A stretch of DNA of 30,790 bases from a virus. Below are positions 1 through 10,190 of the stretch, piece by piece. Where the stretch lies: positions 1-30,790 of IMG/VR virus record IMGVR_UViG_3300010293_000027. One strand, written 5' to 3'. The translations under genes and the position numbers were made by a program. A model generated the notes under the pieces. That model was not told where the DNA came from and ran no database searches. It saw only the letters and a list, made by a program, of their open reading frames with translations. Numbering within the stretch: position 1 is the first letter of the stretch; each line of letters starts with the position of its first letter.

Positions 1-321
1 GACTGGGGCTGGGCACCAGATTATGTTAAGTACTACCACCGAATGTTACAGGTGTCCCCTTCTGATGATTATATCATTGCTACAGGAATGGATCATACCG
101 TTAAAGATCTTGTAGAGCTTGCTTTTTCCAGTGTTGGGCTTGATTGGAAAGGATATGTCTCGTACTCTGTGGATAATGTTAATGCTTCCACCGGGATAAT
201 CCCAATTGCTCTGGATACTACAAAGGCAAAAAATAAGCTTGGGTTCAAAGTAGATACCCTTTTTGAAGAGTGGGTCCCACTTATAGTACAGAATGAATTA
301 AAGGTGTGCAATGCAATATGA
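1..321 (+). CDS. gmd: GDP-mannose 4,6-dehydratase, C-terminal fragment (cut by window start)
   Basis: The reading frame is open from base 1 and begins with residues DWGWAPDYV, which match the conserved (R)DWGWAPDYV motif near the C-terminus of GDP-mannose 4,6-dehydratases (extended SDR family). Further family signatures follow: DDYIIATG, then VKDLVELAFSSVGLDW, then a closing KAKNKLGF segment. The enzyme converts GDP-mannose to GDP-4-keto-6-deoxymannose, the precursor of fucose, rhamnose, perosamine and related deoxysugars. Only about 106 residues are visible; the Rossmann NAD(P) site and the catalytic YxxxK lie upstream of the window. The region that normally reads RPAEVD is diverged here (NASTGI), so substrate use could differ. 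The stop overlaps the next start as ATGA. Family assignment is strong; activity cannot be judged from a fragment. Confidence 0.88.
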   Translation, partial: DWGWAPDYVKYYHRMLQVSPSDDYIIATGMDHTVKDLVELAFSSVGLDWKGYVSYSVDNVNASTGIIPIALDTTKAKNKLGFKVDTLFEEWVPLIVQNELKVCNAI

Positions 322-1250
322 GTAACATACTTTTTGTAAACCACCCCGAATCACAGTGCGGTGTATGGCAGATGGGAAGACGATTTTGTACCGCACTGCA
401 AAAGAGTTCCAGGTACGCCTTCCATTATGTAGAAGTCGGTGATCCGCATTGCGTATTGGGCTGTCCAAATCCACGAGCTGTAATATTCAATTATAGAAAT
501 ACCACACTACCACTTCATAAGGTAGAGCACATAAAGACACTGCTCCCAGGTCGTCCGTACATCAGCATAGTTCATGAGATACATGAAGGCTACCCATTTG
601 AACCGTCCTTCTCTCACTACCTTACGATAGATCCGACATATCCTGCGGATAATATACGAGTATTTAAAACTGTCCCTGAAATTCCTGCAGACTGCGGTAT
701 ACCGTACCAACCACCAGCAACGGACTCTGAAACTATAGTTGGTACATTTGGATTTGCAACTGATGGTAAGGGTTACGAGATAGTGTTGGAGGAGGTTGCG
801 AAGGAGTTTCCGGGTGCTACGTTCAGGCTACATATTCCCTTTGCAACTTATGGGGATGCTGACGGTTACAGGGCAAAGACCTGGAGTGAGTGGTACGCAA
901 ATCGGTGCGTCGAGGTAGGGATTAAACCAGAAATTACGCACGACTACCTGCCCAGCAGTGACCTGGTAAGAAGGTTGGCTGAGAACCACCTGAACTGTCT
1001 ATTTTATGGTGAGCATGCTGGTAGAGGGGTTAGCGGTGCTGCCGAGTACTGTCTTGCGGCCAGACGCCCACTCCTGATCTCCAGGTCTAAAATGTTCAGA
1101 CATATCACCGATAAGGTATGTGTCTGGCCTGATGTGTCGCTACGTGAGGCTTTAATTACCGGCCCTTTGCGTGTAAAAGAAATTGCGGACAGCTGGACTG
1201 CTGATCGGGTCTATCTGGATACGGAGTATATGCTTGACTCCATTATATAA
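318..1250 (+). CDS. Glycosyltransferase, GT-B-like (family uncertain)
   Basis: The predicted protein has 310 residues and looks like a phage GT-B-fold glycosyltransferase that would move a sugar from a nucleotide donor to an unknown acceptor. The N-terminus MSNILFVNHPESQCGVWQ resembles the first Rossmann strand and loop of this fold. The second half has a typical GT-B donor domain: a GTFGFATDGKGYE turn, and late in the protein GEHAGRGVSGAAEYCLAAR followed by RPLLIS and a MFRHI segment, similar to glycan genes of other phages. An in-frame ATG lies 12 bases upstream at 306. I chose 318 because it overlaps the dehydratase stop as ATGA and an AAAGGTG ribosome site sits about 12 bases before it. 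Donor and acceptor are unknown. Confidence 0.7.
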   Translation: MSNILFVNHPESQCGVWQMGRRFCTALQKSSRYAFHYVEVGDPHCVLGCPNPRAVIFNYRNTTLPLHKVEHIKTLLPGRPYISIVHEIHEGYPFEPSFSHYLTIDPTYPADNIRVFKTVPEIPADCGIPYQPPATDSETIVGTFGFATDGKGYEIVLEEVAKEFPGATFRLHIPFATYGDADGYRAKTWSEWYANRCVEVGIKPEITHDYLPSSDLVRRLAENHLNCLFYGEHAGRGVSGAAEYCLAARRPLLISRSKMFRHITDKVCVWPDVSLREALITGPLRVKEIADSWTADRVYLDTEYMLDSII

Positions 1251-2001
1251 GATATCCGGTGGAAGTGGATGCACCATAGAGGTTTTTCCTGGACATGTAA
1301 GGAAAATATCCCCATCCATAGAATATAACCACAGGCTACTGGCCCAGATGAATAAGCAAAAATCATGGACGATGTACAAAGTTCCAGAAGTATTTGGAAC
1401 CGGTATTATACGTACATTAGCTTATATGGATATGGAGAGGATTAGTGGCAAAAGGTTTTCGCGTAGTATATTTGATTACTCACTAAACACAGCTTTTGAT
1501 ACATTGTGTAGTATCATCCCCCCTGCTGAGTCGGTAGTACTATGTAACGTAACAGATATTGTAATAGAAAAAGTGGAATCAATAGTAAGCAAAACCCAAA
1601 GTAAAGCAGTTATTACACTTGCGGAACGTATATTAGACGCGGATTGGACACAGTTTCCCACAGGTATATCACACGGTGACCTGACACTTGAAAATATACT
1701 TGATACTAAAGATGGGCCTGTGGTTATCGACTTTCTGGACACCGCTATAAATAGCTTTATAATAGATATTGCAAAATTGCTACAGGATACCGAGCTATTC
1801 TGGTCATACAGATTTGATGGTATACCTGATCCGATGCTTCTAAAGGCGCTATCAGCCTTGCTACGTCGGCAGGCTATGGGGTATAGTGAGCTGCTTGATC
1901 AAATACTGTGGTTTAATACACTTAGAATTCTGCCTTATATAAAGGACGGAACTACTGAAACCTGGCTCATTGGTACGCTGAGGCTGTGGGGTATAGGATG
2001 A
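1234..2001 (+). CDS. APH/choline-kinase-fold phosphotransferase
   Basis: This 255-residue protein carries the catalytic signature of the aminoglycoside phosphotransferase/choline kinase fold. HGDLTLEN sits at residues 147-154, with the likely catalytic base Asp149 and metal-binding Asn154. The metal-binding Asp of the DFLD motif is at residue 166. A glycine-rich N-terminus (KISGGSG, then VRKIS) fits the ATP-binding lobe. The open frame extends upstream to an ATG at 1183, but that puts 68 bases inside the previous gene. The TTG at 1234 has a GGAG seven bases before it and begins the protein at MTPLYKISGGSG, so I prefer it. The next gene encodes a nucleotidyltransferase and is ATGA-coupled, which suggests this kinase phosphorylates a sugar or small alcohol that is then nucleotide-activated, as LicA and LicC do for choline. 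The substrate is inference. Confidence 0.75.
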   Translation: MTPLYKISGGSGCTIEVFPGHVRKISPSIEYNHRLLAQMNKQKSWTMYKVPEVFGTGIIRTLAYMDMERISGKRFSRSIFDYSLNTAFDTLCSIIPPAESVVLCNVTDIVIEKVESIVSKTQSKAVITLAERILDADWTQFPTGISHGDLTLENILDTKDGPVVIDFLDTAINSFIIDIAKLLQDTELFWSYRFDGIPDPMLLKALSALLRRQAMGYSELLDQILWFNTLRILPYIKDGTTETWLIGTLRLWGIG

Positions 2002-3035
2002 CTACTTTAGTTATTCCGTGTGCGGGGCAGTCCACGCGATTCCCAAATATGCGCCCCAAGTTTTTACTTACCCATCCTGATGGCGCATTAATGGTTGAAA
2101 AGATCTTACAGGCAGAAGAACATAATAAATACGACAGAGTAGTTGTTACAATAACAAGAGCACAGGAAAAGCATGACGCGTTGTTGATTTTACAACAGCT
2201 GCAACATCAGTACAGTTTTGAGGTGTGCTTACTTGACGGCCCAACAAAACATGAGCCGGAAACAATTATGAAAACCATCGAGGTAATGAGCATAACAGGC
2301 GGAATTGTAGTACATGATGTTGATAGTTATGTAGTGTACCAGAAGCCTACAAAAGAAGCTTCTTTTGTTGTTGGGGTGGATATGCACGAGCTGCCTGACC
2401 CAGAGGTATTGAATAAAAGCTATATCGTATTACATAACGACACTAGTATCGTTAAGAAAGTAATTGAAAGGAGAGTTGTATCTTCTATTATTTGTACCGG
2501 TGTCTATGGATTTGCATCTGTGGATAGATTTTTTCAGACATACATAGACTGTGAGAACCTGTACCTTAGCAATATGATTTCGACTGTTGCTGATTTAGAT
2601 CGTGTTCATTTTATTAAATGTAGTGAGTATGAGGATTGGGGTACATTAGCCAGATGGAATAAGTACAAAAAGAAGCACCGTACATTTTTCGTAGATATCG
2701 ATGGGGTTGTTGTAGTAAATCGTGGTAAGTACGGTAAAGCTACGTGGGATGCTCCACCTATAGTCCTGGAAAAAAACGTACAGATTCTACAAGATCTTGA
2801 GCGTAACGGGGCAAAAATTGTATTCACAACAGCACGTCCGCAGGAATTAAAAGATGTAACAGAAACGTTCTTAACTACTATTGGGTTTAAACACCCCGTG
2901 GTGGTATATGGTTGTACACATGCTGAAAGGATATTGGTCAACGATTTTGCAACGAGTAATCCATATCCAAGCTGTGTCGCAATACCCATCCCCCGTGATG
3001 GTAACCTCTGGGAGTATTTGGACTGCAATGATTAA
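1998..3035 (+). CDS. Bifunctional nucleotidyltransferase / HAD-type phosphatase
   Basis: This 345-residue protein has two domains. Residues 1 to about 225 form a sugar-nucleotidyltransferase (MobA/RfbA-like) Rossmann domain. The signature is LVIPCAGQSTRF at 4-15 with Lys21 in RPKFLL, and VVHDVDSY later as the metal-binding Asp motif. Residues from about 230 form a HAD-superfamily domain: FVDIDGV with nucleophile Asp233 and Asp235, motif II Thr in FTTARP at 276-281, and VNDFA at 314-318 followed by NPYPSC. That ending resembles HAD domains found in surface-polysaccharide loci. The chemistry would be transfer of a nucleotide to a phosphorylated sugar or alcohol plus a dephosphorylation step. 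An upstream in-frame ATG at 1986 is less likely than 1998, which overlaps the kinase stop as ATGA. The product identity is unknown. Confidence 0.78.
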   Translation: MTTLVIPCAGQSTRFPNMRPKFLLTHPDGALMVEKILQAEEHNKYDRVVVTITRAQEKHDALLILQQLQHQYSFEVCLLDGPTKHEPETIMKTIEVMSITGGIVVHDVDSYVVYQKPTKEASFVVGVDMHELPDPEVLNKSYIVLHNDTSIVKKVIERRVVSSIICTGVYGFASVDRFFQTYIDCENLYLSNMISTVADLDRVHFIKCSEYEDWGTLARWNKYKKKHRTFFVDIDGVVVVNRGKYGKATWDAPPIVLEKNVQILQDLERNGAKIVFTTARPQELKDVTETFLTTIGFKHPVVVYGCTHAERILVNDFATSNPYPSCVAIPIPRDGNLWEYLDCND

Positions 3036-3089
3036 AGTTGTCCAGTAGTTATCACACCGGGGGTTTTACTGACACATTAAGTTTTTCGT

Positions 3090-3206
3090 ATGCACCCACA
3101 TGAATTAGGAACACTGGTAATAAACGCAAATGGTAAACTTAATATAATGTATAATGGTTATTATTACCGCACAAAGATAATCCTATACACTACCAGCTTA
3201 GTATAG
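3090..3206 (+). CDS. Possible 38-residue small protein
   Basis: An ATG-started frame of 38 codons (MHPHELGTLVINANGKL at the start, then NGYYYRTK) fills most of the gap between the nucleotidyltransferase and the WavE-like gene. The alternating hydrophobic pattern with Gly/Asn turns looks like a beta-hairpin, so it could be a real small protein or the remnant of a beta-rich one. No good ribosome site precedes the ATG (upstream bases are T-rich), and no family is recognised. It could equally be a chance frame in an untranslated leader. Confidence 0.25.
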   Translation: MHPHELGTLVINANGKLNIMYNGYYYRTKIILYTTSLV

Positions 3207-3207
3207 G
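3182..3207 (+). promoter_or_regulatory. Inverted repeat overlapping a ribosome binding site
   Basis: CCTATAC at 3182-3188 is perfectly complementary to GTATAGG at 3201-3207, giving a 7 bp stem with a 12-base loop. The right arm contains the first bases of the AGGTGAG ribosome site (3205-3211) of the WavE-like gene, so pairing would partly hide it. This may control translation, but a 7 bp stem can also arise by chance. Confidence 0.3.
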
Positions 3208-3217
3208 TGAGTTGGTC

Positions 3218-3994
3218 ATGATTACCGCAATAGTACAGGGACAACCGTATCCGCAAACCGAAGCTATCCTTAACCATCTCTCCAATGTAGCCGTAATATC
3301 TGAGATTCTTGTAGTTACCTCAACCACGGATAGGTCAGTCGTTTTACCTGCAGATGCTCGCCAGATTCGCATTGATGAAAGTAACCTATTTCCAGGAGTA
3401 GGTAATAGAAATAGACAGATAGCAAAATCTCTGGCAGGTGTACAGCAAGCAACCAATCCCATAACCATTAAAATGCGAAGCGATCAGGTATTTACTGCTT
3501 ACACCTTGAATAATATGATTTCATGGTATATGGATAACAAGCAACTGCCTACCACCGGTAGAAATGGGAAGTCCTTAAATCCAATATATACGCTTGGAAA
3601 CTATTCCACATTTCCATTTCATCCGCGAGATCATTTATTTATGGGGAAGACGGAAGATATTCTACTATTGTTTGACATTCCATTGGATACCATTGCTGCT
3701 CCTGCAGACTATACCGTAGTAGTACGAAGCGAGACGTACATCGGTCAGTTTTATATGAACAGGTTTATTGATATAGATAGGATGATACGATCTCCGACAA
3801 GCTATTTAACCGATTTGGCTCCTTGTCGTAATGAGGCAATGGTATTAAATGCAAAGCATATCGATACTGTATTTAAGCCCTTTCCCAAAGTAGATTTTGA
3901 GTGGCCCAATAAAGGACTCAGTAACTACTATTTTGATTTTGTGGCGGGGCATGGACAATACTGGAGCCCCGGGTTCATTGGTAAATCAGGATAA
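3218..3994 (+). CDS. WavE-like lipopolysaccharide glycosyltransferase
   Basis: The 258-residue protein shows the pattern of the WavE family, named from Vibrio LPS core synthesis. It begins with a hydrophobic strand (MITAIVQGQ). Then comes a strand ending VVTSTT at 32-37, NRNRQIAKSLAGVQQA at 63-78 (the family's NxRQI...G motif) and the KMRSDQ box at 85-90, which carries the Asp expected to bind the donor nucleotide sugar. The ATG at 3218 has an AGGTGAG ribosome site seven bases upstream; an in-frame TTG six bases earlier at 3212 would leave almost no spacing. The protein probably adds a sugar to a polysaccharide or to a phage structure. The next gene follows after 63 bases. Confidence 0.68.
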   Translation: MITAIVQGQPYPQTEAILNHLSNVAVISEILVVTSTTDRSVVLPADARQIRIDESNLFPGVGNRNRQIAKSLAGVQQATNPITIKMRSDQVFTAYTLNNMISWYMDNKQLPTTGRNGKSLNPIYTLGNYSTFPFHPRDHLFMGKTEDILLLFDIPLDTIAAPADYTVVVRSETYIGQFYMNRFIDIDRMIRSPTSYLTDLAPCRNEAMVLNAKHIDTVFKPFPKVDFEWPNKGLSNYYFDFVAGHGQYWSPGFIGKSG

Positions 3995-4057
3995 GTTCCA
4001 CAGAGGATCACGCGTATCTATCTATGGAATAGAAAGATTAGAGAGGAATACTAAACT

Positions 4058-4888
4058 GTGCCCAACGTACTATTCACCTGCCCAGGTCAAATAGGCGACG
4101 ATCTATTTCGATTTCCTATTGCATATCAGTATGCGAAACAACGCAGTATAAAAATCGATATTGCTCTGTGGGAAGGTTCCAAAACCCTGTTAAGTCTGCT
4201 AACCGATGAGCCGTGGGTAGATAACGTATTTACTTCTCCAGGGATTACAGGCCTTCCGCTTGGTGGACAGCCGTGGGATTTTGGGAGAGACGCTGAGTGG
4301 CGAACACAGTATACGCACGTATACCATCTTGGATACAGGCGGTACCCATACCCAAGAATTAATAACACACTGGAGTGTTTAGAGACTTCTGAAACCCCTA
4401 TAAATATTGATAGTCTTCTTACTGAGCCATGCCTGACAAAACATACGCATAAATCAACTAAGAATTTAGCAGTGCATTTTGATGCTAGTTGTGAGATGCG
4501 TAATAGCACAAGTTTTCAAACTGTTGCCCCACTATTTGATAATCTCAGGGATATGTTTACTACCTGCTTTTTACTTGGTATCAGATTTGACCGCCCACAG
4601 TATACTGCTATAATAGCGCGGTATGGTAATTGGGTTGTTCCTATATCGGATAGTGGCGATTGGAACGTTACAGCTAAGGTACTTGAAGAGTGCGTTTTAG
4701 TAGGTACCTATGGTAGTATGTGGGCGCTAATGAACTGCATGAAAGGGCCACAAGTCGTAATAATGGATACTGATTTTATACGAGACAAGGGAAATAAAAT
4801 CTCCTTCCCAGAAGTAGAAAGGCTGGTAGTTGTCGGTGATTCTACCGGTGTTTTAAATAATACTATTGAGTTGGTGAATCGTGGATAA
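4058..4888 (+). CDS. Glycosyltransferase-like protein (GT9/heptosyltransferase-like, uncertain)
   Basis: The 276-residue product begins NVLFTCPGQIGDDLFRFPIA, which resembles the glycine-rich first loop (GxxGD) of GT-B enzymes such as the LPS heptosyltransferases of family GT9. The C-terminal half has strands and a GTYGSMWALMNCM segment where GT9 proteins bind the sugar nucleotide. The match is to general fold features only. The start is a GTG at 4058 with GAGAGG about 11 bases upstream, and no ATG precedes the conserved strand. It lies between two other glycosyltransferase-like genes and overlaps the next start by 8 bases. It could instead be a non-enzymatic GT-B relative. Confidence 0.55.
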   Translation: MPNVLFTCPGQIGDDLFRFPIAYQYAKQRSIKIDIALWEGSKTLLSLLTDEPWVDNVFTSPGITGLPLGGQPWDFGRDAEWRTQYTHVYHLGYRRYPYPRINNTLECLETSETPINIDSLLTEPCLTKHTHKSTKNLAVHFDASCEMRNSTSFQTVAPLFDNLRDMFTTCFLLGIRFDRPQYTAIIARYGNWVVPISDSGDWNVTAKVLEECVLVGTYGSMWALMNCMKGPQVVIMDTDFIRDKGNKISFPEVERLVVVGDSTGVLNNTIELVNRG

Positions 4889-5540
4889 TACAATAATCCT
4901 ATCTCAGTGGTACAGAGAGTCAGAGTTGTATACGTGGGGGTACAGAGAAGTTTTCTGCCCGTTATGGAGGCACGCACTGGAACTATGCGCTCCAGGTATT
5001 CCTATATTGGTTTGTGATAATGGTGGTGAGGTACGCCAACCTCATAGAGGTGTTGAAGTAGTGAACCTTGTTAATCCGTTACCACATGGGCGCGGTACTG
5101 AGGGCCATTACAGTAACTGTTGGAAAGCAATAAGGCAGCTAATAAACATAGCAATAAACCGTAACTTTGAAGTTGGTGTGTTTGTAGGGCAGAATAATCT
5201 TGTAGGGGTCCCATTTATTGATGCGGTTACTGCTGGATTAAACACTGCTGATATACTTTGTAGTACCGGTTGGTCTACCGCTAATGGGTGCCATACTGAG
5301 ATAATGGCATTTAATCTGAAAAGGTGCGCCGGATTACTAAAGAAGGAATATGCATTTCCACTAGAGGTATCTATGACAGGGTGGGCAGGAGAGTTAGGTC
5401 TTGTTATCGCTGAGTGCGCCGAACTGTATCACAAGTGCAACTGGCCTAATTTAGATATTGATACCGTAACCTGCGGAAGAAGCCCACTATCGTATCAAGT
5501 ACAGTTTGCAGAAAGGCACGGATTACTTAGAGATGAATAA
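4881..5540 (+). CDS. Putative glycosyltransferase, family not recognised
   Basis: The protein has 219 residues with a GT-A-like feel. It opens with a strand (TIILSQWYRESE), then a PILVCDNGGE segment near residue 41, much like the strand-plus-acidic loop at the start of nucleotide-sugar-binding domains. A GVFVGQNNLVGVPFIDA segment follows, and then TEIMAFNLK. No DxD motif is evident, so catalysis is unproven. The start is GTG at 4881, overlapping the preceding stop by 8 bases. No signal peptide or membrane helix is seen. The role is inferred mainly from position between a glycosyltransferase-like gene and a sugar methyltransferase. Confidence 0.5.
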   Translation: MDNTIILSQWYRESELYTWGYREVFCPLWRHALELCAPGIPILVCDNGGEVRQPHRGVEVVNLVNPLPHGRGTEGHYSNCWKAIRQLINIAINRNFEVGVFVGQNNLVGVPFIDAVTAGLNTADILCSTGWSTANGCHTEIMAFNLKRCAGLLKKEYAFPLEVSMTGWAGELGLVIAECAELYHKCNWPNLDIDTVTCGRSPLSYQVQFAERHGLLRDE

Positions 5541-6744
5541 CAAATGCAGGTTAGATAATACTGAGCTTATCCCGGTAGTAGATATGGGTAATCTCTTTGT
5601 TTCAGATTTTGTAGATAGGGTTGGTGCTGGTGAACAATTTCCAGTTATGCTTGGAAGATGTCCAGCGTGTGGACTTACACAATTAGCAGACAGCTACTCC
5701 CCAGAAAAGATGTACCGCCACTACTGGTACCGTTCCGGTACTAATGAGCAAATGCGACAGGATTTACAAGACGTTGTAGAATCCGCTGAGAAGTGGGTGA
5801 CACTGAACCCACGAGATTATGTATTGGATATCGGCGCTAATGACGGAACAATGCTCAGCTTCTTTCCAAGAGATGTCGTTAAAGTTGGCATAGATCCATC
5901 GCAACTCATAGTAGAAGAGGCACCTAAGAATGTACCGGAGCCAAATGTACTGATCAGAAACTTCTTTAGTAAGTATTCTGTACCAGATACCGAGTATAAG
6001 GTAATTACCTCTATAGCAATGTTCTATGATATAGAATCTCCGCTAAAGTTTACTGAAGATATTTATGATATTTTGAGCGATGATGGGGTGTGGATTGTAC
6101 AACTATCATACACCCCGCTAATGGTAAAACAAAATGCCTGGGATAATCTTGGCCACGAGCATATTATGTACTATACACTTAGCTCTATTATCAAAGCAAT
6201 TGATAATAGGTTCAGACTTGTAGACGTAGAGCTTAATAACGTCAACTGCGGATCGTTTAGACTATACTTTACAAAGAACCGACCGAATGTACCTGGACAT
6301 GAGTTAGTACTTGGTAATTTACGCATAGACTCCCTTGCCGCGTATGAGATGAATAACCAGTATGAGAATGGCTTGATTTATGATAACTACTTTGCTGGTA
6401 ATGTTAAACAGTCCAGAGAAGAGCTGGTACAGTTCTTATCCCAGAATGCTGGTAAAGTTTACGGATTAGGTGCATCTACTAAAGGCAATACTCTTCTGCA
6501 GTATTGTGGAGTAACCCCCGAAATTATGCCAGCAATTGCTGATAGACAACCACAAAAACACGGGCTATTAACAGCCGGTACGTGGATTCCAATTATAAGT
6601 GAAGAAGAGCTTAGAAAGATTAAACCCGAATACGCTCTAATTCTTCCGTGGACATTTTCAAACAATATTATAGCAAGAGAGAAGGAACTCAGGAGTACCG
6701 GTACAAAGTTCGTGGTACCACTACCAAAGCTGCATATTTTGTAA
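5533..6744 (+). CDS. Sugar C-methyltransferase (SAM-dependent, TylC3-like)
   Basis: This 403-residue protein has the three-part layout of NDP-hexose C-methyltransferases. There is an N-terminal zinc-type region (Cys5, then RCPACGLTQL with Cys43 and Cys46), a class I SAM-binding domain with VLDIGANDG at 97-105, and a C-terminal domain beginning VYGLGASTKGNTLLQY, a family hallmark. The enzymes put a methyl group on a ring carbon of a keto-deoxy sugar nucleotide, so it could act on a product of the dehydratase upstream. The usual first CxxC is CRLD here, so one of four zinc cysteines is replaced by Asp8. The ATG at 5533 overlaps the previous stop; another in-frame ATG at 5506 would start before the Cys motif by nine residues. 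Confidence 0.82.
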   Translation: MNNKCRLDNTELIPVVDMGNLFVSDFVDRVGAGEQFPVMLGRCPACGLTQLADSYSPEKMYRHYWYRSGTNEQMRQDLQDVVESAEKWVTLNPRDYVLDIGANDGTMLSFFPRDVVKVGIDPSQLIVEEAPKNVPEPNVLIRNFFSKYSVPDTEYKVITSIAMFYDIESPLKFTEDIYDILSDDGVWIVQLSYTPLMVKQNAWDNLGHEHIMYYTLSSIIKAIDNRFRLVDVELNNVNCGSFRLYFTKNRPNVPGHELVLGNLRIDSLAAYEMNNQYENGLIYDNYFAGNVKQSREELVQFLSQNAGKVYGLGASTKGNTLLQYCGVTPEIMPAIADRQPQKHGLLTAGTWIPIISEEELRKIKPEYALILPWTFSNNIIAREKELRSTGTKFVVPLPKLHIL

Positions 6745-6760: not shown

Positions 6761-7177
6761 ATGACTAGAGATGCGATGAAGAAGCTGGTTCTTCCTGAAA
6801 TCTGTCTGGACAAATTAACTGCTAACGAACTCCATACCGTCTTTAGTATCCCAGACTATGATAGAGATAAGGTAGATATAAAACTGCATGACGTGATTCA
6901 GATATGCCTCGCCAGTGGGGAGGGGGTACTCAAGGCATTTGGACTTGGGGAAGTAGCCGCTATAAAATCCTGCGCACTGATTGATGTTTCGCCTGAAGAT
7001 ATTAAACATGGGCCGGAGGTAGTAAAAACAAAGAAAGACCTGGCAGGGATGCTACGTGAAAACTACCCGGAGTATAAAGCAGATATAGTCGCACGTACCC
7101 CCATAAACGTCACAACCGTCAGGAGGTTTGATTACGATCTTGGAAGACTCCGCCAATTCGTTAAAGTCCCGAAGTAG
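6761..7177 (+). CDS. Hypothetical protein, 138 residues
   Basis: I do not recognise a family. The product is soluble and mixed-charge (MTRDAMKKLVLPEICLDK at the start), with no membrane helix or signal peptide. A LGEVAAIKSCALIDVSPEDI segment and a basic C-terminus (VTTVRRFDYDLGRLRQF) are the only notable parts. The ATG at 6761 has a strong CCAGGAGG ribosome site seven bases before it, so it is likely expressed. It opens a new translational unit after the methyltransferase, 16 bases downstream, and overlaps the zinc-ribbon gene at its 3' end. Confidence 0.7.
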   Translation: MTRDAMKKLVLPEICLDKLTANELHTVFSIPDYDRDKVDIKLHDVIQICLASGEGVLKAFGLGEVAAIKSCALIDVSPEDIKHGPEVVKTKKDLAGMLRENYPEYKADIVARTPINVTTVRRFDYDLGRLRQFVKVPK

Positions 7178-7568
7178 GTGTAGAATTTGCGGGGCACCAT
7201 ATTACGCGCGTGGGTTATGTAAGAGTTGTTACAACACCGAATATTATTCTAAACATAATACCCGCGTAAACAAAAACTGGGCCAGAAAATACAGCAAATG
7301 TATAAAATGCAAATCAACAAGATACAGACATGTCGGCCACGGACTTTGCACCGCGTGCTACATAAAGAAGAAGTACAAGACTAAGATAAAATACCAACCC
7401 AGAACCAGGTGGGCCAGATACTTTGATTGCTGCGAAAGGTGCGGGACAACTTCTACAAAGCACAGGTCAAGTGGTTTATGCCTTACCTGCTACCAGAGCA
7501 CCAAGAGACAGCCAAAATTAAACTTCTTGAAAATTACAAAAACCATGCCCCAGGTTCTCCCCTCTTAA
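7140..7568 (+). CDS. Small protein with three zinc-ribbon-like repeats
   Basis: The product, about 142 residues and strongly basic, contains three similar zinc-binding units. Each reads CxxC followed by a Gly-Leu-Cys-x-x-Cys-Tyr box: CRICGAPYYARGLCKSCYN, then CIKC with HGLCTACY, then CERC with SGLCLTCY. The gap between Cys pairs is 9, 12 and 12 residues. Such RGLCxxCY knuckles occur in phage DNA-binding and HNH-associated proteins, but no HNH catalytic motif is visible. The start is unclear: AGGAGG at 7121-7126 is one base before a TTG at 7128 and 13 bases before the TTG at 7140, which I use. It probably binds nucleic acid or stabilises a structure. Confidence 0.65.
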   Translation: MEDSANSLKSRSRCRICGAPYYARGLCKSCYNTEYYSKHNTRVNKNWARKYSKCIKCKSTRYRHVGHGLCTACYIKKKYKTKIKYQPRTRWARYFDCCERCGTTSTKHRSSGLCLTCYQSTKRQPKLNFLKITKTMPQVLPS

Positions 7569-7589: not shown

Positions 7590-10190
7590 ATGCGAACTCA
7601 ATATGTTCCGCCAGACTCGCAGGCAGATTTAAGACATCTCGCCCGCCCGTTTTCGGTACATGCCACCGGACTGAATAGAAATCAAACAGGAGTAGCCATT
7701 GCATCTGCTATCAATTCCTCGATAGACAGTCTATCTATTCCTGTAAGTGGTTTCTATGAGTTTAATGTCAAAACTTATGGCGCTTCTGGCGATGGTGTAA
7801 CAGATGATACGGTTGCACTTCAGCACACATTTGACGTTATGGTCGCTTCCGGGGAGCGAAACATATTACGCATACCCCCAGGAATTTATAAGTTTACCCA
7901 ACCATTAGTTTGGGTTACTAACAGTACGCCGTTTAATATACTAGCAGAAGGGTCTATTTTATACTATTGCGCGGATGATCCGGTTACTGCTGTAACTATT
8001 GGCGCCACTGGTGCAGTTATTGATAGATGTTTCTTTGTGGGGCTGGATGTTTATAAAGAAACCCGAAACTGGAGCGTTGCTTCATCGGGTGTAGAGTTTG
8101 TTAACATCTTTGCCTGCCAGGTCCAGGACTTTTCAGTCACCAGTTTCAAGTCGGGATTTATACTTAACGGGTATAATAAAGGTAACACATACAATAGATT
8201 TACGTTGAACCGTATACGCGGTAATCAGTATGGTTTGTCCCTTAAACGATCTGGCGCTGGTGGGTATGTTACCCAGCAACTATTCATTGGCGGGTCGTGG
8301 AATAGCGGAACAGTAGAGATAGCCACATACGATCACTACGGGCATGTCTGGTTTCCAGAAGCCAGTTCTGCTTACGGAACTTTTCACTTTGATTACTGTG
8401 CCTTTGAGGGTGGGTTTGATTACTACAGCGTGGCAACTACTGGTTATGCGTTTAATGTAAATGTAAACAACGTCATCTTTAACCAGTGCAGATTCGAGTT
8501 TGTCATAGGTAGTGGTGCGCACTACCCTGCATACGGGATACTTGGTTCTTCCAGTTCTTTTTGTACCGTCCATCATGTGCATTCTACCAGCAACATAATC
8601 TTTCATAACGCTGGAACATATAACCAGATATGGTATGCCGATAGGATGAATACGGTAGAAATATCCTCCGGTATATTCAGACCTATTACTAATGGAAGAA
8701 TCGGGTTCAACACATACAACGCAGTCAACTATGGACTGCATGTTATGTATGATGCGTACAAAACTGAAGCGGAGATAGGTAGTAGTGGCATTATGCAGGT
8801 GGGCGAGTTAAGTGCTACACTTGCTTCTACTGCACTTTCAGTCTACACCGGAACTGGTACTGGCTTGTACGTGGGAACGTTTACCGGTACACCAATCTCC
8901 TCCACCGTAACTAACCTGTCTCCCAACAGTCACAACACAGTACTCACAGTAGCCCACGCACTATCTGGTGGAATGAACCCAACCGCCGGTTCTTTTGGTT
9001 CTGCTATCTCGTTTAGAAGCGCATTACAGGATACTGCAAGTCTCGGGGCTATGGGACTTATCTACTGTACTTCTGATGATGTGACCCTGGAAAACAAGCG
9101 CGGTAGATTCAGATTTATTACCTATGGCGGCAGCGGTACATTCACTTCTCTTCAACTCGGTAACACCGGATTTGAAGGGGAGTCTACTCTAGGATTCTTC
9201 GGAAACACCCCGACCACCAAGCCTACAGTCTCTGGATACACCCTCGGAACGGGGGTATCTTCCCTGCTTTCAGGGCTGGAGGACCTTGGACTTCTTGTCG
9301 ATTCTACTGAAGATATGACTTATCTTTACCTTCTTTGGTCGGCTGCAACATCCGGAGATAGCCTCTACAAACTGCGCGTGGGTAGTAATAACGCCTTAAA
9401 CAGTCAGACTGCAGGTTTCTTTGAGTCCGGTAGTAGTTATGCCCTCTGGGCGCAAACCAGAACCGGTACCCCGATCTACGGATCAATACTTGGTTCCAGT
9501 GCTACTGCAGACCCTTCTGCTCTTATATTATCAAACCTTGGAAATGGGGTCATTACCCCTGCCGCCGGGTTTGGTACCAGCGTCGTATTTAATGCCGTAC
9601 TTACTGGTGGTGGTACTGGTAGACAATTCTTTATCAGAAACACCTGGGTCGACGCTAATACTGCTTCTTATAAAAGCCGCTGGAGAATGCACGCACACGA
9701 TGCGGCTTCTTCATCTACCGGTAGAGAGATATTAAGAGGAGAGGCCAGCGGAACCGCTGGTATGATAGGGTTCCTCGGATCTAATGCTTCGCCGACTATT
9801 GCAGTATCCGGGCATACCGGGGATGGAAGTTATCAGATAGCCCTTGGTAATGCTATTAAGACCTTCGGGTTAATAACCTCCACCATAGCATCCAGCGGCG
9901 AAAGTCACAGGTTTACTATAGCCTGTACTGCAGGTACTTCAGGGTTTGTAACTTTAAGTATTGGGAGTAGCGACGTAATCTTTGCTGATGGGTATGCTGA
10001 GATAACTCTTCCAGCCGCCGCCGGTTGCTCTGGTAAGACTTTTACAATAAAACGGCGCGGAACTGATTTAGTAGTAGCAATACCACCAGGTGCGGAAACA
10101 ATAGACGGGGCGGCAACAAAAGAACTAACTACTCAGTATGAACTTGTTAAAGTAATGAGCGACGGAACAAACTGGAACATAATAGGTTAA
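7590..10190 (+). CDS. Tail spike with pectate-lyase-fold (beta-helix) domain
   Basis: The 866-residue protein starts with a short virion-attachment-like region. It then shows VKTYGASGDGVTDDTVALQ at 60-78, the signature opening of the pectate lyase 3/glycoside hydrolase 55-type beta-helix in phage tail spikes, followed by beta-helix sequence to about residue 400. From about 410 to 790 two similar modules of roughly 196 residues occur in tandem: TGTGLYVGTFTGTPI matches YALWAQTRTGTPI, and STLGFFGN matches MIGFLGSN. The end (ETIDGA, then SDGTNWNIIG) is typical of phage fibre tips. Such spikes often bind or cleave host polysaccharide; catalytic residues were not located. GGGGGAAG precedes the ATG by ten bases. 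Confidence 0.8.
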   Translation: MRTQYVPPDSQADLRHLARPFSVHATGLNRNQTGVAIASAINSSIDSLSIPVSGFYEFNVKTYGASGDGVTDDTVALQHTFDVMVASGERNILRIPPGIYKFTQPLVWVTNSTPFNILAEGSILYYCADDPVTAVTIGATGAVIDRCFFVGLDVYKETRNWSVASSGVEFVNIFACQVQDFSVTSFKSGFILNGYNKGNTYNRFTLNRIRGNQYGLSLKRSGAGGYVTQQLFIGGSWNSGTVEIATYDHYGHVWFPEASSAYGTFHFDYCAFEGGFDYYSVATTGYAFNVNVNNVIFNQCRFEFVIGSGAHYPAYGILGSSSSFCTVHHVHSTSNIIFHNAGTYNQIWYADRMNTVEISSGIFRPITNGRIGFNTYNAVNYGLHVMYDAYKTEAEIGSSGIMQVGELSATLASTALSVYTGTGTGLYVGTFTGTPISSTVTNLSPNSHNTVLTVAHALSGGMNPTAGSFGSAISFRSALQDTASLGAMGLIYCTSDDVTLENKRGRFRFITYGGSGTFTSLQLGNTGFEGESTLGFFGNTPTTKPTVSGYTLGTGVSSLLSGLEDLGLLVDSTEDMTYLYLLWSAATSGDSLYKLRVGSNNALNSQTAGFFESGSSYALWAQTRTGTPIYGSILGSSATADPSALILSNLGNGVITPAAGFGTSVVFNAVLTGGGTGRQFFIRNTWVDANTASYKSRWRMHAHDAASSSTGREILRGEASGTAGMIGFLGSNASPTIAVSGHTGDGSYQIALGNAIKTFGLITSTIASSGESHRFTIACTAGTSGFVTLSIGSSDVIFADGYAEITLPAAAGCSGKTFTIKRRGTDLVVAIPPGAETIDGAATKELTTQYELVKVMSDGTNWNIIG

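Follow-up and report, generated by a model that had tools for sequence, protein, structure and literature searches.

A phage-borne cassette of sugar-activation and glycosyltransferase genes, proposed to form two donor-plus-transferase modules, beside the tail spike of a myovirus

Introduction

Phage-borne clusters of genes for the modification of surface polysaccharides are already known. Those of jumbo cyanophages such as P-SSM2 have been suggested to change the surface of the host so as to ward off other phages (PMC7824862). Individual routes to activated sugars have been described in bacteria: in Pseudomonas, MupP, AmgK and MurU dephosphorylate a sugar phosphate, phosphorylate it at the anomeric position and activate it (PMC5371407), and the combination of GDP-mannose 4,6-dehydratase (GMD) with C3-methylation is one of two routes to virenose proposed in silico (PMC3539893). 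Here we analyse a cassette of eight genes, g1 to g8, at positions 1–6744 of the virus record IMGVR_UViG_3300010293_000027 from IMG/VR (30,790 bp, hereafter the window). With a dehydratase fragment (g1), a kinase, a nucleotidyltransferase and glycosyltransferases in one phage run, the cassette would, on sequence grounds, join the surface-polysaccharide modification clusters of phages; neither its enzyme combination nor the presence of that combination in this lineage was found in the literature that we searched. Our best explanation, to which we assign a probability of about 60%, is that bacterial surface-glycan genes were acquired by a large myophage, that they make and transfer two unusual residues, and that they serve to remodel the host surface.

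Results

The eight open reading frames (ORFs) of the cassette stand back to back on the + strand in a tightly packed run, all of them where an earlier note, made from the bare sequence, had placed them. Functions are supported for six of the eight; g6 and g7 are without detectable relatives. We propose that the cassette resolves into two donor-plus-transferase modules: module A, for donor A, with g1, g8 and g2, and module B, for donor B, with g3, g4 and g5.

1–321, + strand: g1, C-terminal 106 residues of a GMD-type enzyme (donor A; PF16363, 56.1 bits, cut-off 27)
318–1250, + strand: g2, GT-B fold glycosyltransferase by predicted structure, proposed to transfer donor A
1234–2001, + strand: g3, APH-fold small-molecule kinase (PF01636, 39.0 bits, cut-off 23.2)
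1998–2678, + strand: g4, N-terminal domain, MobA/IspD/MurU-like nucleotidyltransferase by motifs and fold (approximate domain border)
2679–3035, + strand: g4, C-terminal domain, small HAD phosphatase (HAD motifs, sub-threshold Acid_phosphat_B match)
3218–3994, + strand: g5, WavE-family lipopolysaccharide (LPS) synthesis protein, proposed to transfer donor B (PF07507)
4058–4888, + strand: g6, protein without family match, with a faint GT9-like N-terminus seen by eye only (coding-like codon use)
4881–5540, + strand: g7, protein without family match (coding-like codon use)
5533–6744, + strand: g8, NDP-sugar 3-C-methyltransferase-like protein (donor A; PF08484, 130.1 bits; PF13489, 45.3 bits)

Neighbouring genes overlap at five of the seven junctions, in agreement with the overlapping starts noticed earlier. 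The overlap is an exact ATGA at g1/g2 (318–321) and g3/g4 (1998–2001), 8 nt at both g6/g7 and g7/g8, and 17 nt at g2/g3 if g3 starts at TTG 1234; the longest ORF of g3 begins at 1183, and the TTG agrees with its homologues. Gaps of 182 nt (with ATG 3218 as the start of g5) and 63 nt separate g4 from g5 and g5 from g6. The former (3036–3217) is a gene-free interval inside the packed run and gave no match in Rfam. The cassette begins at the contig start, so that its left end lies outside the view.

Within module A, g1 is open at the contig start, with its catalytic N-terminal part outside the window; the fragment alone, which is all the window holds, scores 59.8 bits against the NCBIfam gmd model TIGR01472 (cut-off 415). 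Of the PF08421-PF13489-PF08484 architecture of NDP-sugar C-methyltransferases, g8 shows the last two domains above their cut-offs, and its N-terminal PF08421 match reaches 28.2 bits against a cut-off of 31.3. This protein holds an HEH motif and aligns over nearly its full length with D-mycarose 3-C-methyltransferase (9e-37), and also with TcaB9, in the PDB. No meaningful Pfam match was obtained for g2. Its AlphaFold2 model (pLDDT 91, pTM 0.88) has two Rossmann-like domains, and a Foldseek search of the PDB returned SenB at the top (TM 0.72, E 8.8e-12), then GlgM, HepE and BshA, all of which we take to be GT-B enzymes; the model thus predicts a GT-B fold. In Synechococcus phage DSL-LC02, a region that carries the annotation 'glycosyltransferase family 4 protein' shares 29% identity with g2. 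A scan of IMG/VR with homologues of g2, and not with the methyltransferase, yielded 33 loci, among which at least two (L226 and L253) are contigs used in the query and some are near copies. A C-methyltransferase is present in 30 of the 33, within 1 kb on the same strand in 19 and on the opposite strand in four; L241 and L249 have neither C-methyltransferase nor GMD, and L251 has GMD only. Because GMD plus C3-methylation is a proposed route to virenose, a virenose-like sugar is a fair guess for the product of module A.

The kinase and the fusion protein of module B keep the motifs of their families. In an alignment of 21 g3 sequences, HGD...N and D183 are invariant and the DFLD motif is kept. 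The g4 motifs GxSxR...PK, DxD, HAD DxDG, T278 and ND are conserved, those of the HAD part being invariant in 34 sequences; we assume for the g3 motifs (HGD...N, DFLD) and the g4 motifs the catalytic roles usually attached to them. Against Pfam, g4 gave IspD/NTP-transferase and HAD matches below threshold, and HAD families were found in its homologues. The predicted structure of g4 (pLDDT 88) is nearest, among solved folds, to a Vibrio cholerae NDP-sugar pyrophosphorylase (4evw, TM by target 0.73) and also matches MurU and LicC (TM 0.67–0.72). LicC-like activation of an alcohol fits this fold, so that g3 and g4 may carry out a choline-type activation; they may also follow a heptose-type bisphosphate route, as suggested by a match of the HAD part to phrog_1238, named phosphoheptose isomerase.

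Pairing of g3 with g4 was followed in viruses and in cells. An IMG/VR scan with an alignment of g4 and one marine phage homologue gave 128 stretches that fit the pattern, 63 of which encode a relative; the full-length viral g4 proteins, the marine phage included, number 61 and form 21 groups at 80% identity. A g3 homologue lies directly 5' of g4 and overlaps it in all 61 viral loci that show both genes, taking longest-ORF starts. The kinase is present in 60 of the 63 IMG/VR loci; the remaining three have a match that starts no more than 171 bp from the end of the contig. The corresponding genome scan gave 45 stretches fitting the pattern and 25 cellular loci, from Proteobacteria, Bacteroidota, Bacillota, Cyanobacteria, Melainabacteria, Nitrospirota, Verrucomicrobia, Acidobacteriota, candidate phyla and one Woesearchaeote. 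A same-strand kinase accompanies g4 in 24 of these 25, within 150 bp in 21 (in L083 the kinase ORF is split and reaches g4) and at 1.1–2.9 kb in L090, L097 and L101; L089 shows no kinase in its 880 bp upstream of g4.

The third gene of module B, g5, scores 30.6 bits against PF07507, above the gathering cut-off of 27, with a match that spans positions 79–174 of 305 only. WavE homologues occur in 17 of the 63 viral g4 loci, or six of the 21 groups, and in three (by profile) or seven (by BLAST clustering) of the 25 cellular loci. To avoid the bias of starting from g4, WavE was searched independently in 295 genomes of the Ferrimonas order. It was found in 17 of them, of which 12 (or 11 of 16 once the seed genome is left out) also have a g4-type nucleotidyltransferase in the 1.5 kb on either side of WavE. 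Four of the 12 positive regions were opened (L257 to L260). In three of them WavE stands with separate genes for a small HAD-like protein, a kinase-like protein of 527–530 residues and a nucleotidyltransferase, the kinase and HAD matches being weak; in L260 it stands with the two-gene g3-g4 form. Pfam names a Kdo transferase in L257 and L258, the two loci tested, and a Kdo kinase and two heptosyltransferases in L257, so that this neighbourhood is LPS-core territory. In Ferrimonas L105 the order is heptosyltransferase, kinase-g4-WavE-WavE and SIS isomerase. A search of plasmids with g4 gave two partial, weak matches. The mobilizable IncR plasmid NZ_CP056344 of Citrobacter (L255) carries a capsule locus with insertion sequence (IS) transposases on its flanks; the locus encodes a HAD protein, a nucleotidyltransferase, an ABC transporter, two WavE proteins and a protein of 514 residues that matches the kinase weakly. 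In an Acetobacter plasmid (L256) a nucleotidyltransferase and a gene annotated as HAD are present, and the six genes tested there gave no match to the kinase or WavE profiles. No description of the WavE donor or of the g3-g4 pair was found in the literature searched, where 'wave' is also a common word and subscription papers mostly lay outside the scope.

A tree of 46 g4 proteins places the window inside a bacterial clade (support 99/95), away from a clade of 20 viral members. It requires at least three changes between viruses and bacteria; three captures would account for them, and so would one gain with two losses. Long sugar-gene regions were also seen in other phage records: the single-cell phage record Marine virus AG-345-E15 (L003) has a very long run, mostly read by eye, around a kinase-g4 pair at about 14.4–38.8 kb, and the 735-kb phage LR756501 (L004) has two C-methyltransferase homologues in a region that appears by eye to be rich in transferase-like genes.

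The phage itself is recognisable from the rest of the window. A myovirus head and tail block with terminase, portal, major capsid protein and two sheath proteins extends from 12.9 kb onward. The portal shares 36% identity with the portals of Moorella phage MTATph1 and Bacillus phage KLEB27-3 and 29% with that of Acinetobacter phage ME3; the gene order matches that of MTATph1 and KLEB27-3. The first 25,000 bases of the window gave no megablast match in 50,697 phage records. Among terminase-related phage loci (the best 80 of 408, 1.14 Mb, from records that may be fragments), none of the 80 has any of six cassette families. Neither g4 nor the C-methyltransferase was found in ten larger records of the terminase set and two named phages, a search in which positive controls were recovered in 3/3 cases for g4 and 2/3 for the methyltransferase, the third not being an expected carrier; a g4 search of 17 related phage records, run without a positive control, was negative as well, and 12 of these are the records repeated with controls.

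Between the cassette and the virion genes lie two small ORFs and a tail spike:

6761–7177, + strand: g9, small phage gene at the right border of the cassette (homologues in L109, L111 and L112)
7128–7568, + strand: g9b, zinc-ribbon ORF (kept in L111 and L112)
7590–10190, + strand: pectate-lyase-fold tail spike (PF12708, 34.7 bits; PHROG tail spike)

g9 begins 16 bp past the end of g8 on the same strand. The spike starts 845 bp beyond g8, close to the 850 bases given earlier, and its identification was confirmed by both PF12708 and the PHROG match; g9 and g9b fill the interval. The sister loci L111 and L112 share their ORFs over the region compared; in both, the homologue of the window's post-spike gene begins 3 bp beyond g9b, and in L109 about 300 bp separate g9 from that homologue. 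Given terminase relatives that have no cassette, and L111 and L112 that have no spike at this place, the cassette and the spike look like accessory insertions flanking g9-g9b. In-frame codon scores are 0.14–0.31 for g1 to g8 and 0.15–0.23 for g9, the spike and the next gene. g9b stands apart: it has zinc-ribbon and weak HNH-endonuclease PHROG matches and a negative in-frame codon score, unlike its neighbours. The terminase ORF of L111 and L112 (8459–10984 in both, 841 residues) aligns to that of the window in two segments with about 0.9 kb between them and so contains an insertion that may be an intein; the annotated KLEB27-3 terminase is also long. PADLOC gave no match for ten proteins, Rfam gave none, and no tRNA was found in the window.

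For g6 and g7, tblastn in the 50,697 phage records found no match, and single-sequence scans of IMG/VR found no confirmed relative, a null also obtained with single-sequence g4 and TerL scans. Alignment-based scans worked for g4, TerL and g2; for g6 and g7 no alignment was possible. The idea that g6 is a GT9 enzyme was rejected, hhalign against three GT9-like proteins giving a probability of 0.4%.

Discussion

The earlier note had read this region as a phage-borne cassette for sugar activation and transfer, with host-surface remodelling as an option, and our analysis upholds this broad reading. The kinase, the nucleotidyltransferase-phosphatase and the C-methyltransferase stand as assigned, and the dehydratase stands as a fragment. 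Taking gene content, motifs, the modelled folds of g2 and g4, the pairing of genes, the LPS-core and capsule context of relatives and the absence of the cassette near the terminases of related phages as observed, we infer the order of reactions, the substrates, the acceptor and the benefit as follows. GMD (g1) would make GDP-4-keto-6-deoxymannose and g8 would methylate it at C3. Completion of donor A would fall to a reductase, either the host's own or one encoded beyond the contig, and g2 would transfer the C-methylated 6-deoxyhexose. In parallel, the HAD domain of g4 would strip the phosphate from a host sugar- (or alcohol-) phosphate, g3 would put a phosphate back on the position destined for activation, the nucleotidyltransferase domain of g4 would make a nucleoside diphosphate (NDP) donor and g5 (WavE) would transfer the residue. 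The acceptor would most likely be the LPS core, O-chain or capsule of the host during infection. The altered surface would stop re-adsorption and rival phages, and the phage's own spike probably attacks a surface glycan.

Three acceptors had been put forward from the sequence: host surface, virion and DNA. We rank the host surface first, virion decoration second and DNA modification a distant third. The host surface is favoured because homologous genes lie in LPS-core and capsule loci. Proteins with SLH domains occur in phage loci that share the module (by Pfam at L040:2837-3727 and L008:4985-5869; by pattern in 9 of 64 viral g4 loci), as do Phage_OMP proteins, by Pfam, in two other module-sharing records, and this again points to the envelope. 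By eye, the SLH proteins of L040 and L008 have signal-peptide-like starts and resemble cyanobacterial outer-membrane proteins. The transferases might instead glycosylate a virion protein such as the spike, sheath or capsid, for shielding or altered binding. The cassette does adjoin the spike and the virion gene block; glycans on the capsid and tail tube of mycobacteriophages have also been reported (PMC12619734). Sister phages, however, keep their virion genes without a cassette nearby, the homologues of the module sit in LPS-core and capsule loci, and two donor pathways with several transferases would better suit a lipid-linked oligosaccharide than a single glycan on a protein, which leaves adjacency to the spike as what speaks for the virion in this window and makes such a role rather unlikely. 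Transfer of sugars to modified bases of the phage DNA seems to us very improbable. Some phage glycosyltransferases do modify DNA, and the g2 model matches a T4-type DNA alpha-glucosyltransferase, at a lower TM of 0.56. Yet none of the 19 window ORFs scanned against PHROGs was recognised as a base-modification gene, the relatives sit in envelope-glycan loci, and neither C-methylated deoxyhexose nor WavE modules have, to our knowledge, a precedent in DNA modification, so that the seen part of the phage lends DNA no support.

Two further explanations concern the origin of the cassette. It might rebuild or alter the very glycan that the phage's own spike degrades, both having been acquired together. 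Cassette and spike flank g9-g9b and are both absent at those positions in L111 and L112, an arrangement that would suit such a matched pair; this adjacency is known from one contig only, however, and two separate insertions would explain it equally well, and we hold joint acquisition to be improbable. Alternatively, a bacterial glycan locus might have been joined artificially to the left end of the phage contig. The g4 protein does group with bacterial ones, and the cassette lies at a contig end with no second contig spanning the junction, which counts against our explanation. Against such an artefact stand the phage gene g9, 16 bp after g8 on the same strand, the codon scores of g1 to g8, which resemble the values for g9, the spike and the gene after it, and the frequency of comparable cassettes in other phages; we give it very little credence.

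Several results weigh against remodelling of the host surface by two complete modules. Nothing in the sequence fixes the acceptor, and LPS is not assured as such since the nearest named relatives infect Moorella, Bacillus and Acinetobacter. Of the 19 window ORFs scanned against Pfam and PHROGs, to which our statements of absence refer, none was recognised as a flippase, polymerase, ligase or 4-ketoreductase, or as an enzyme of GDP-mannose synthesis. The earlier description of a full activation-plus-transfer set therefore goes too far: GMD is cut off, these missing steps were unrecognised and two of the transferases are unsupported. Indeed, of four glycosyltransferase-like steps, g2 (through its GT-B model) and g5 (as WavE) stood up, and g6 and g7, with no match in Pfam, PHROGs or NCBIfam, did not and are genes left unexplained. 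The kinase g3 scores 13.9 bits against the AmgK model NF045759 (cut-off 550), AmgK matches at E 0.01 or better concern five of the 21 sequences in its alignment (best 3e-4), and no MurU model matched g4; by analogy, module B would resemble MupP-AmgK-MurU in mechanism without membership of those families. In five of the 17 WavE-bearing genomes the nucleotidyltransferase was not seen within 1.5 kb on each side, and the profiles detected neither a HAD nor a kinase gene in L258. The long branch of the window (1.5) makes its exact place in the g4 tree unsure. The two modules are also seldom together. g2 is found in none of the 63 viral g4 loci, and neither g3 nor g4 in any of the 33 g2 loci; across the 21 viral g4 groups the C-methyltransferase occurs in two, GMD in four and WavE in six, and across the 25 cellular loci GMD occurs in four, the C-methyltransferase in one and WavE, by profile, in three. 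L040, on the other hand, has GMD, C-methyltransferase, g3, g4 and WavE together, and so has Magasanikbacteria L086. From these low counts and combined loci, the joining of parts of A and B recurs and is not fixed. The homology search by which the earlier note had hoped to learn whether the set travels together thus answers that it does, as two separate sub-modules.

A more specific proposal, which we consider tentative and rather doubtful as a whole, is that g3-g4 constitutes an undescribed, self-contained route of three activities that shifts a phosphate and activates a residue specifically for WavE transferases, that it was captured repeatedly by unrelated phages, and that the residue, once added to the LPS core or capsule, closes the infected cell to competitors, here coupled to a new spike and a C-methylated sugar. 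A vague 'phage glycan cassette' becomes, in our analysis, two defined donor-plus-transferase modules with named partners, and WavE, for which no donor was found in the literature searched, gains a testable activation pathway. The same two-gene module occurs across several bacterial phyla, on one archaeal contig and on phage contigs that do not belong to the lineage of the window. If the proposed role is true, a receptor-binding spike is linked to a cassette that changes the receptor layer.

The known systems resemble the cassette in different parts. Clusters of the P-SSM2 type share with it an NAD-dependent sugar epimerase/dehydratase, a sugar kinase, a nucleotidyltransferase and several glycosyltransferases, their kinase being of the PfkB type and their nucleotidyltransferase of the HIGH superfamily (PMC7824862), whereas the window has an APH kinase, a MobA/IspD-type nucleotidyltransferase-HAD fusion, WavE and a C-methyltransferase and belongs to a lineage with relatives among the phages of Moorella and Bacillus. 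Pelagimyophages carry LPS-type genes in the hypervariable tail-fibre (host-recognition) region, with the same proposed role; their best represented transferase family is GT8 and their sugar genes are rfaE and UDP-glucose dehydrogenase (PMC7029224). Module A finds its closest likeness in Synechococcus phage DSL-LC02 (OR032571), which has GMD, a C-methyltransferase, a g2 homologue and further glycosyltransferases in one run, together with a GDP-fucose synthase of its own, and which is described as a cyanophage of the Kyanoviridae (PMC10611076). In this phage g3, g4 and g5 were unmatched in the 25 kb examined, and g4 and g5 were unmatched by tblastn in the whole record. MupP, AmgK and MurU combine a HAD phosphatase, an anomeric kinase and a nucleotidyltransferase in consecutive steps (PMC5371407), as is proposed for module B. 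In the window HAD and nucleotidyltransferase are fused, and the substrate probably differs, because the relatives of module B sit with WavE in LPS and capsule loci. The wav-type LPS-core loci of the gamma-proteobacterial Ferrimonas order, finally, combine WavE with HAD-like, kinase-like and nucleotidyltransferase genes, and in the loci tested for them Kdo transferase, Kdo kinase and heptosyltransferases lie nearby. V. cholerae has such an LPS-core cluster, called wav. Three of the four opened Ferrimonas-order loci have the three functions in separate genes, and the fused two-gene form of the phage is found in L105 and L260.

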